Part shown: piece after piece, positions 5,932-46,560 of the stretch
Layout: each line of letters opens with the position of its first letter
Position numbering within the stretch: the first letter of the stretch is position 1
Assembly (NCBI GenBank): GCA_947452295.1
Contig: CANGCK010000007.1
Span: 20,419 to 84,418, forward strand
Direction of reading: 5' to 3'
Length of the DNA: 64,000 nucleotides
Source of the DNA: Sphingobacteriia bacterium
Lineage (GTDB): Bacteria > Bacteroidota > Bacteroidia > Chitinophagales > Chitinophagaceae
Program-made: the position numbers and the translations under genes
Notes under the pieces: generated by a model
Told to the model about the DNA's origin: nothing
What the model saw: only the letters and a program-made list of their open reading frames with translations
Database searches by the model: none

Positions 5932-5965
5932 ACATACCCGTCAGACCATGGTCTGACGGGTATGT
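5932..5965. repeat. 34-bp perfect palindrome ACATACCCGTCAGACCATGGTCTGACGGGTATGT
   Basis: Self-reverse-complementary by direct reading; core shared with 45937-45971. Confidence 0.95.
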
Positions 5966-31603: not shown

Positions 31604-32260
31604 ATGAACCCTAAAGTAGATGAACTATTAAGTAAAGCAAAAAACTGGCCCAATGAACTGGCATTGCTGAGAAAAATATTGCTTCAAAGTCAACTAACCG
31701 AAGAAATTAAATGGGGTAGTCCTTGTTATACATTTCAAGGTAATAACATCTTGATGTTACATGGTTTTAAAGCATTTTGTGCAGTAAGCTTTTTTAAAGG
31801 TGCATTATTAAAAGACAGTGAAAGCTTATTGGTTAAACCAGGTGAAAATACGCAATTGGGCAGGCAAATTCAATTTACCCAATTACAAGAAATAAAAAAA
31901 ATGTCAGCCGTTATACAAGCGTATATTAAAGAAGCCATTGAAGTTGAGCAAAAAGGAATAAAACAAGCACCAGCAAATAGTTCAGAAAACACTATACCAA
32001 TTGAATTTCAGGAAATATTAAATAAAAATACAATACTTAGAAAAGCTTTCGAAAAATTAACACCAGGTAGACAAAGGGCTTATTTGCTATATTTTTCTGC
32101 ACCCAAACAATCTGGAACAAAAATTACGCGAATTGAAAAATATACCCAGCAAATCATAAATGGCAAAGGCATTAATGATTGCACTTGTGGATTGTCTAAA
32201 AAAATGCCCGGTTGTGATGGATCACATAAACTACTCCACACAATTAAAACACCACATTGA
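31604..32260 (+). CDS. DUF1801/YdeI-like protein with C-terminal CDGSH signature
   Basis: ORF 218 aa; EIKWGSPCYTFQGNNILMLHGFKAFCAVSFFKGALL; RKAFEKLTPGRQRAYLLYFSAPKQSGTKITRIEKY; CTCGLSKKMPGCDGSH. Confidence 0.88.
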   Translation: MNPKVDELLSKAKNWPNELALLRKILLQSQLTEEIKWGSPCYTFQGNNILMLHGFKAFCAVSFFKGALLKDSESLLVKPGENTQLGRQIQFTQLQEIKKMSAVIQAYIKEAIEVEQKGIKQAPANSSENTIPIEFQEILNKNTILRKAFEKLTPGRQRAYLLYFSAPKQSGTKITRIEKYTQQIINGKGINDCTCGLSKKMPGCDGSHKLLHTIKTPH

Positions 32261-32355
32261 TATTTAACTTTATTTTAATGTTTTGTTAATTAAGCTAAAG
32301 TGGTAATAAACAACTAGTATTCTATAATACTTTCATTGCTGAAAAAATCTATTGA

Positions 32356-32814
32356 ATGATCAATAAAATTTGCATCCTAGTTGCCGTAGTAGTTTTAAGT
32401 ATGAACATGTTAAATGCTCAAACACTCCAACAAGTTCCATTTAAATTGGCCAAACATTATTTTGTAAAAAACAATGTAAAAACCGACCAACTGAAGCAAT
32501 ATAAAATTACTTCGCAAAAGGAGTTTGATAAATTATTTGGCGCTGCTGTGGTGATGGGTAAAGATGGCGCACCTACAAAGATTGATTTTAAGAAAGAGAT
32601 TGTAATAGCGGTTGTAGGGGCTGAAACTTCAATTGCAACTGAATTCATACCAGAAAACATATTAGCCAATTTTGTGGCAACAGGCAAATCAACCCTGGTA
32701 TTTCAATACAAAACGCAATTGGGTAAAACCAATAGTTTCACCGTGGTACCAAATGTTATTGTTGTGGTAGACAGAAAGTATATTGGTTATGCAGTAAAAT
32801 TAAAAGGGCAATAA
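32356..32814 (+). CDS. Hypothetical secreted protein
   Basis: ORF 152 aa; N-terminal signal peptide MINKICILVAVVVLSMNMLNAQ. Confidence 0.65.
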   Translation: MINKICILVAVVVLSMNMLNAQTLQQVPFKLAKHYFVKNNVKTDQLKQYKITSQKEFDKLFGAAVVMGKDGAPTKIDFKKEIVIAVVGAETSIATEFIPENILANFVATGKSTLVFQYKTQLGKTNSFTVVPNVIVVVDRKYIGYAVKLKGQ

Positions 32815-45532: not shown

Positions 45533-45925
45533 ATGACCATTTTTTCTAAGATAATTGCAGGGGAAATACCATCATATAAAATAGCTGAAAATGATTCTTT
45601 TTATGCGTTCCTAGATATTTACCCATTAGTGAAAGGACACGTATTGGTAGTCCCTAAAATCGAAACTGATTGCTTTTTTGATTTAGACAACAATTATTTA
45701 GCTCAAATATTGCTATTTGCCCAACCGATTGCCAAAGCTATTGAAAAAGCTTTTCAATGTAATCGATGTGGTATTAGTGTTATAGGATTGGAAGTGCCGC
45801 ATGCTCACATGCATTTGGTGCCAATTAATAGTGCGGATGATTTGAATTTTAATCGACCAAAATTAAACCTGTCAACTGAAGAATTAAAGCAGGTGCAGGC
45901 AGCTATTTTAGCTAAAATTGAATAA
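45533..45925 (+). CDS. HIT family protein
   Basis: ORF 130 aa; TIFSKIIAGEIPSYKI, VPHAHMHLVP. Confidence 0.95.
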   Translation: MTIFSKIIAGEIPSYKIAENDSFYAFLDIYPLVKGHVLVVPKIETDCFFDLDNNYLAQILLFAQPIAKAIEKAFQCNRCGISVIGLEVPHAHMHLVPINSADDLNFNRPKLNLSTEELKQVQAAILAKIE

Positions 45926-45936
45926 TACCCGTAACA

Positions 45937-45971
45937 CCCGTCAGACCATGGTCTGACGGTGGTCTGACGGG
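45937..45971. repeat. Palindromic repeat, modified second copy: CCCGTCAGACCATGGTCTGACGGTGGTCTGACGGG
   Basis: Core CCGTCAGACCATGGTCTGACGG shared with 5932-5965; right arm duplicated. Confidence 0.95.
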
Positions 45972-45978
45972 TTAAGCC

Positions 45979-46560
45979 TTATTTCTTAAGCCTTTCCGGG
46001 TTTTTTGCTAAAAAATCCCCCCATCCACTTGCTGATTTTTTCTTTATTGTACTTCCAGATGAAGGCTTGGTAGCCAGTATTTTTTGTTGATAAAAATGAC
46101 ACAGCGCAACCGAAAGGGCATCTGTAGCATCAAAATACTGAGGTTTCTCTTCAATATGTAAAATTATTTGTAACATTTTCCATACCTGATCCTTATCTGC
46201 ATTGCCATTTCCAGTAATTGATTGTTTAACTTTTTTGGGTGCATACTCTGTAACCAATAATTTCGACTGCATAGCAGCGGCAATAGCAACGCCTTGTGCC
46301 CTGCCTAGCTTCAACATACTCTGCACATTCTTTCCGAAAAAAGGAGCCTCAATGGCAAAAGTCGAAGGCTTGTATTGGGTAATTAAAGCGCAAATCTTTG
46401 TATGTATCATTTCTAACCGCGCATAAATATCTTTTTCTTTTGTAAGCTTTAATACATCCATCACCAATAATTGAGGGCTACCTTTTTGTATACCAATTAC
46501 TGCATACCCCATTAATTGACTGCCCGGATCAACACCCATAATAACACTATCGTATTTCAT
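45979..46560 (-). CDS. ruvC: Crossover junction endodeoxyribonuclease RuvC
   Basis: ORF 193 aa; IMGVDPGSQLMGYAVI, AIEAPFFGKNVQSMLKLGRAQGVAIAA. Confidence 0.95.
   Translation of the reverse strand: MKYDSVIMGVDPGSQLMGYAVIGIQKGSPQLLVMDVLKLTKEKDIYARLEMIHTKICALITQYKPSTFAIEAPFFGKNVQSMLKLGRAQGVAIAAAMQSKLLVTEYAPKKVKQSITGNGNADKDQVWKMLQIILHIEEKPQYFDATDALSVALCHFYQQKILATKPSSGSTIKKKSASGWGDFLAKNPERLKK

Follow-up and report, generated by a model that had tools for sequence, protein, structure and literature searches.

The closest described systems are the repetitive extragenic palindromes (REPs), REPINs and RAYTs of E. coli, Pseudomonas and Stenotrophomonas, in which short dispersed palindromes change together and stay palindromic, a single RAYT gene lies between REPs, and the repeats have GTAG-type feet and common stems (PMC2817692, PMC3116915, PMC8266576). 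Nearer in taxonomy is subclass 2.6 of RAYT/TnpA-REP (RAYT group 5, mostly Bacteroidetes), for which PMC6006769 describes a RAYT-like gene, flanking "atypical" hairpins with copies elsewhere in the genome, and an absent GT[AG]G foot. CGTC-tagged REPs are also short extragenic palindromes, and their CGTC is an unpaired end tag with no associated transposase (PMC3733652). Finally, template-switch mutations at hairpins produce inverted copies of adjacent sequence and multi-base compensatory changes (PMC8794818). The palindromes described here resemble each of these systems. They differ from the REPs of E. coli, Pseudomonas and Stenotrophomonas, however, in having a different outer stem at each locus.

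The window, a 64,000-nucleotide stretch of a Chitinophagaceae genome (the host genome, G000; 3.23 Mb, 109 contigs), holds two such palindromes, at 45937-45971 (CCCGTCAGACCATGGTCTGACGGTGGTCTGACGGG, by direct reading) and at 5932-5965. As an earlier note on this DNA had claimed, the two have the same core; it consists of 18 bases, GTCAGACCATGGTCTGAC, and lies at 5940-5957 in the second copy. No 18-mer match is expected by chance in 64 kb (0 in 100 shuffles). The unstranded palindrome at 45937-45971 is a REP copy with three half-sites, F-R-R (CCC-GTCAGACC-AT-GGTCTGAC-GGT-GGTCTGAC-GGG), and the two foldings proposed for it in that note, an inner 22-bp palindrome and a 12-bp stem with an 11-nt loop, both hold when the sequence is read directly. 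Folded as single-stranded DNA, the region has an energy of -16.5 kcal/mol (z -5.8), a stability equaled by 0/200 shuffles, and an Rfam search of the locus returned no known RNA element up to E 1. Pfam bears out the convergent neighbors that the note had named, a HIT-domain gene on the left (45533-45925, plus strand; PF01230, E 2e-17) and ruvC on the right (45979-46560, minus strand; PF02075, E 3e-44). The copy at 5932-5965, likewise unstranded, has two half-sites, F-R, within 5-bp locus-specific arms (ACATA/TATGT), and a decayed orthologous copy with compensatory changes is present in G013, the nearest relative found.

Genome-wide, the core occurs in 17 exact copies, a count in which imperfect copies may be missed, and the reversed control pattern in none. 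All 17 are identical over 18 bp and lie outside called ORFs, beside convergent, tandem, and divergent genes. The motif search that the earlier note had suggested thus did find additional copies, and its preference for a dispersed palindromic element was justified. This is the short palindromic repeat with many extragenic copies that defines a REP, although the number is below the >100 copies usual in PMC2817692. Among 60 relatives the core was found in one, G031, as a single copy, and 84,980 GTDB species genomes gave three matches outside the host, one of them in G031. Because three is close to the chance number that we estimate for an 18-mer in 257 Gb, the core is not a widespread sequence. 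An operator or other gene-specific site was rejected on the basis of the 17 dispersed copies and the species restriction, and a phage or viral origin was rejected since the core is absent from all IMG/VR viral contigs.

On contig C25, core copies at 32126 and 32750 bracket an ORF of 173 amino acids (32211-32729), the arrangement of a RAYT gene flanked by its own REPs. Its product matches Pfam PF01797 (Y1_Tnp) above the cut-off and NCBIfam REP_Tyr_transpos with E 6e-15 and 55.3 bits; because the latter does not reach the equivalog cut-off of 80, we claim membership of the wider RAYT kind and not of the equivalog. An alignment with nine relatives shows the PNHFH (HUH) and Y[IV]HxNP tyrosine motifs to be invariant. 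A PDB search with the sequence gave no match, whereas the fold search was clear: the AlphaFold model (pLDDT 93) has as its best PDB match (Foldseek rank 1, E 5e-8) 4ER8, the structure of a REP-associated tyrosine transposase in complex with its hairpin substrate, a REP. Together, the Pfam match, the invariant residues, and the rank of 4ER8 identify a predicted HUH/Y1 fold with catalytic HUH and Tyr residues.

No other such gene was found in the host genome. Orthologues with 53-54% identity are present in G031, G114, and G135, where they likewise precede an oxidoreductase-like gene at the corresponding position; each is followed on its 3' side by a palindrome, GTCAGAC[CG]ATGGTCTGAC, that is the same as the host's or one base different, and has GTCAGAC half-sites on its 5' side. 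Since REPs bracket the host RAYT and its orthologues adjoin near-identical palindromes, these are the REPs of that RAYT, and the palindrome in the window is a REP of a Bacteroidetes-type RAYT rather than an unidentified element. An IS200/IS605 insertion sequence, whose transposase gene would be mobile and multicopy, was rejected, as there is one gene and it lies in the same place in four species. The host RAYT has the motifs NHFH and YVHMNP, compared with NH[LIV]H and YIH[QN]NP in subclass 2.6, a comparison made by motifs only. The 5' GT[AG]G foot of most REP classes is not a constant feature beside the host core. Part of the host copies do contain CGTC (CCCGTCAGACC), but inside the stem and in a system linked to a RAYT, unlike the CGTC-tagged REPs. 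G013 lacks the entire REP-RAYT-REP unit at the corresponding position; its assembly is 82% complete, so a RAYT might still lie elsewhere in it. On either side of the host unit (L012, 1481-1490 and 2160-2180) stands an imperfect direct repeat, ATGGGATTTTTTTTATT / ATGGGATATTTTTATT, which is present in a single copy in G013 (L228); this repeat could mark insertion or deletion of the unit. A further RAYT group of the genus is represented by L175 and L176 (G088 and G085, respectively), and the flanks of the G088 gene carry another palindrome, CTTTTGGAAAGTT..AACTTTCCAAAAG.

Host copies fall into two classes, a two-half-site core that often carries CCC/GGG and a four-half-site form, GGTCAGACC-ACC-GTCAGACC-AT-GGTCTGAC-GGT-GGTCTGACC, found at five loci other than 45937. 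The half-sites are spaced by about one helical turn and are arranged as F-R, F-R-R, or F-F-R-R; three-half-site arrays, F-F-R and F-R-R, also occur in G023 and G163. Every host copy is a single palindrome, and none is a REPIN made of two inverted REPs and a spacer. The earlier note had explained the array at 45937 by duplication of the right arm, which is one possible reading, but a four-half-site form that lost a left half-site would fit equally well: F-R-R may be that form minus one 11-bp direct repeat or may have gained an arm, and we infer only that one half-site was lost or gained. Of the two origins that the note had suggested, slippage or a replication-associated mechanism, copying of a replication type does seem to shape the arms, whereas duplication by slippage would be only one possibility, the additional arm being one arrangement of half-sites among several. 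Nor did the comparison of HIT-ruvC intergenic regions that it proposed yield a simple empty site in the nearest relative, since G013 has a shorter, different hairpin there (ACTGGTCCGACCAGT); nothing alike was seen in G023, G082, and the other genus members examined. Any terminator or regulatory effect on the HIT-domain gene or ruvC would be a by-product.

Related hairpins of the form GGTCAGACC-N5-GGTCTGACC, some with an additional half-site, are present at L150 and L154-L159 in G023 and G163, and no RAYT was detected in either genome (G163 is listed as 100% complete). Six genomes were searched for the pattern GGTCNGACC, and its matches in G021 look like chance matches in coding sequence. At L127 of the host genome (2975-3060; C35:27392) a deletion-like variant has two direct half-sites between CATACT/AGTATG arms, with a full copy 1.5 kb away.

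The main feature of these REPs, which the earlier account had missed, is that most host copies form the center of extended, perfectly paired palindromes with outer arms that are different at each locus (e.g., CGCATAAATCCGCAAACCG/CGGTTTGCGGATTTATGCG). These locus-specific arms have a mean length of 8.59 bp and reach 20 bp, whereas right flanks swapped among loci gave a mean of 0.40 and at most 1.24 in 2000 shuffles. At three loci, L002 (window position 5932), L005, and L011, G013 has imperfect palindromes at the orthologous places. Across 58 arm pairs, taken from the G000/G013 alignments of these loci and typed by hand, there are six compensatory double changes where 1.7 are expected (P 0.0006), indicating that either selection or copying has kept these sequences palindromic. 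Among more distant genomes, G023 and G082 have no palindrome at L005, and G023 has none at L002. For L001, L007, and L128, empty sites were either not found or the loci not covered; the flank query did not include the RAYT-internal flanks and most of L128.

Within the genus, a second RAYT/REP family shows the same behavior. The RAYTs of G073, G156, and G033 (motifs NHFH and YIHQNP) have another REP on their flanks, GGTCGGGRCGCT..AGCGRCCTGAMC; its pattern is matched up to 24 times per genome, and some of these REPs form close inverted pairs. Here, too, the arms are locus-specific, extending on average 4.41 bp beyond the first pair compared with 0.57 for swapped flanks (n=46). Because the core of this family is asymmetric, its direction can be read: a gene stop codon falls within 80 bp on the 5' side in 26 cases and on the 3' side in 5, and a C stands at the 5' foot in 37/46. 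In two genomes a REP of this family lies in frame inside a MutS gene with the frame intact, at 1501-1527 of L259 (G073), where the gene was assigned by Pfam, and at L266 (G083), where it was assigned by its similar C terminus.

Where these REPs adjoin conserved genes, the origin of the arms can be traced. In four species a xerD-like gene (phage-integrase family) has a second-family REP at its 3' end. There the 5' arm consists of the codons for the conserved FHPA end, and the 3' arm repeats each genome's own FHPAF codons in inverted form, over 19 nt in G073, 10 in G161, 10 in G033, and 6 in G156. The 20 REP-less genomes have ordinary xerD tails after FHP, with chance inverted matches of 4-9 nt; in 19 of them no inverted copy downstream exceeds 8 nt, and in the remaining one it reaches 9. 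With a fixed coding window, G073 and G033 were separated from the REP-less genomes and G161 and G156 were not, their copied tracts (10 and 6 nt, respectively) being too short for separation by themselves. Arms derived from coding sequence also occur where a DUF2480 gene ends (14 nt) and, over 11 nt in both G073 and G156, at the gene that precedes the RAYT. This evidence comes mainly from the second family; the host genome contributes one locus, L127, where the outer 7 nt of the yidD-side arm lie inside the last codons of yidD. A 5' arm of conserved coding sequence facing an inverted copy of the same genome's codons suggests that fold-back copying of the 5' flank produces the arms, the flank being most plausibly the older sequence and the 3' arm its inverted copy.

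We therefore consider it probable that the host palindrome is a RAYT REP extended by fold-back copying of its 5' flank into a locus-specific palindrome. REPs of the host RAYT and of its sister family would settle between genes, and the 3' end of the REP hairpin would then fold back and be extended on the DNA just 5' of the insertion point. Involvement of the RAYT in this copying is our inference: the enzyme is proposed to leave a 3'-OH at the REP foot that primes synthesis, and repeated rounds might keep the arms perfect and the cores identical for as long as the RAYT is present. RAYTs are known to form a Tyr-5'P link and a free 3'-OH and to cleave the DNA to either side of the REP; in a strand-transfer assay, the attacking strand had to have C as its last 3' base (PMC8266576). 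If the REP were joined to a target end ...C, a 3'-OH would be left at the hairpin foot for synthesis on the 5' flank, and the C at the 5' foot of the second family is consistent with such a joining. We tentatively entertain a one-ended insertion, in which a target 3' end, frequently ...C and close to a stop codon, is joined to the hairpin by the RAYT and the 3'-OH primes fold-back synthesis before the far side is sealed, so that each insertion would make its own palindrome and repeated nick-and-copy rounds would keep the arms perfect. Our literature search found no description of this integration mode for HUH elements.

Ordinary replication template switching is a serious rival to copying primed by the RAYT. 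The elements would still be REPs of the RAYT, but their arms would be made and kept at any stable hairpin without it, and we give this account a substantial, though minority, chance. Such switching yields perfect stems and compensatory changes in a single event (PMC8794818) and has been studied in E. coli as quasipalindrome-associated mutation (PMC7202029); moreover, G013 has paired changes without a detected RAYT, some of which may date from the G000 branch. The arms of the second family are oriented, however, with a coding 5' flank, a copied 3' side, and the C at the 5' foot, a pattern expected from strand-specific cleavage, and the palindromes of G013 decay whereas the cores of the host are all identical. 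Unlike the template switches of PMC8794818, the events here also occur at many loci around mobile repeat families and have an orientation relative to the repeat.

The arms might instead be older than the REPs, being the stems of bidirectional terminators into whose loops the core was inserted. In the window, long and perfect stems resembling terminators are frequent; of the copies with the longest arms, three sit between convergent genes with T runs after them; and G013 has a plain terminator-like hairpin at the place of L127. Yet in every host copy that has arms, these join the core directly with no leftover loop bases, copies adjoin separate terminators (L008, L011, L012), and the 5' arm at xerD is coding sequence for which 19 of the 20 REP-less genomes have no inverted copy above 8 nt on the downstream side. 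The features of an intrinsic terminator (a stem and T run 3' of genes) hold for some long-armed copies but not for those between divergent genes or beside a separate terminator. We regard this origin as unlikely; pre-existing terminators account at best for some of the long-armed copies. More improbable still is a dispersed protein-binding site under selection, such as an operator or nucleoid-organizing site. The identity of the core at every locus and the helical spacing of the half-sites would suit one, but the core is missing from nearly all relatives, two copies bracket a transposase gene, and the locus-specific arms would be left unexplained.

While the REP itself is of a known kind, its locus-specific, flank-copied arms appear to be new as far as our literature searches reach; these found no description of locus-specific REP arms, with most subscription papers outside their reach. 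For subclass 2.6, the available part of PMC6006769 makes no mention of zero-spacer perfect palindromes with arms of this type. The mechanisms of REP dissemination have been called "poorly understood" (PMC8266576), and inverted flank copies at many insertion points may be the footprint of the joining step, giving a clue to REP insertion that is testable in vitro. The REPs that coexist with a RAYT in the host (G000) and those of the sister species in which the RAYT site is empty (G013) would provide a natural comparison.
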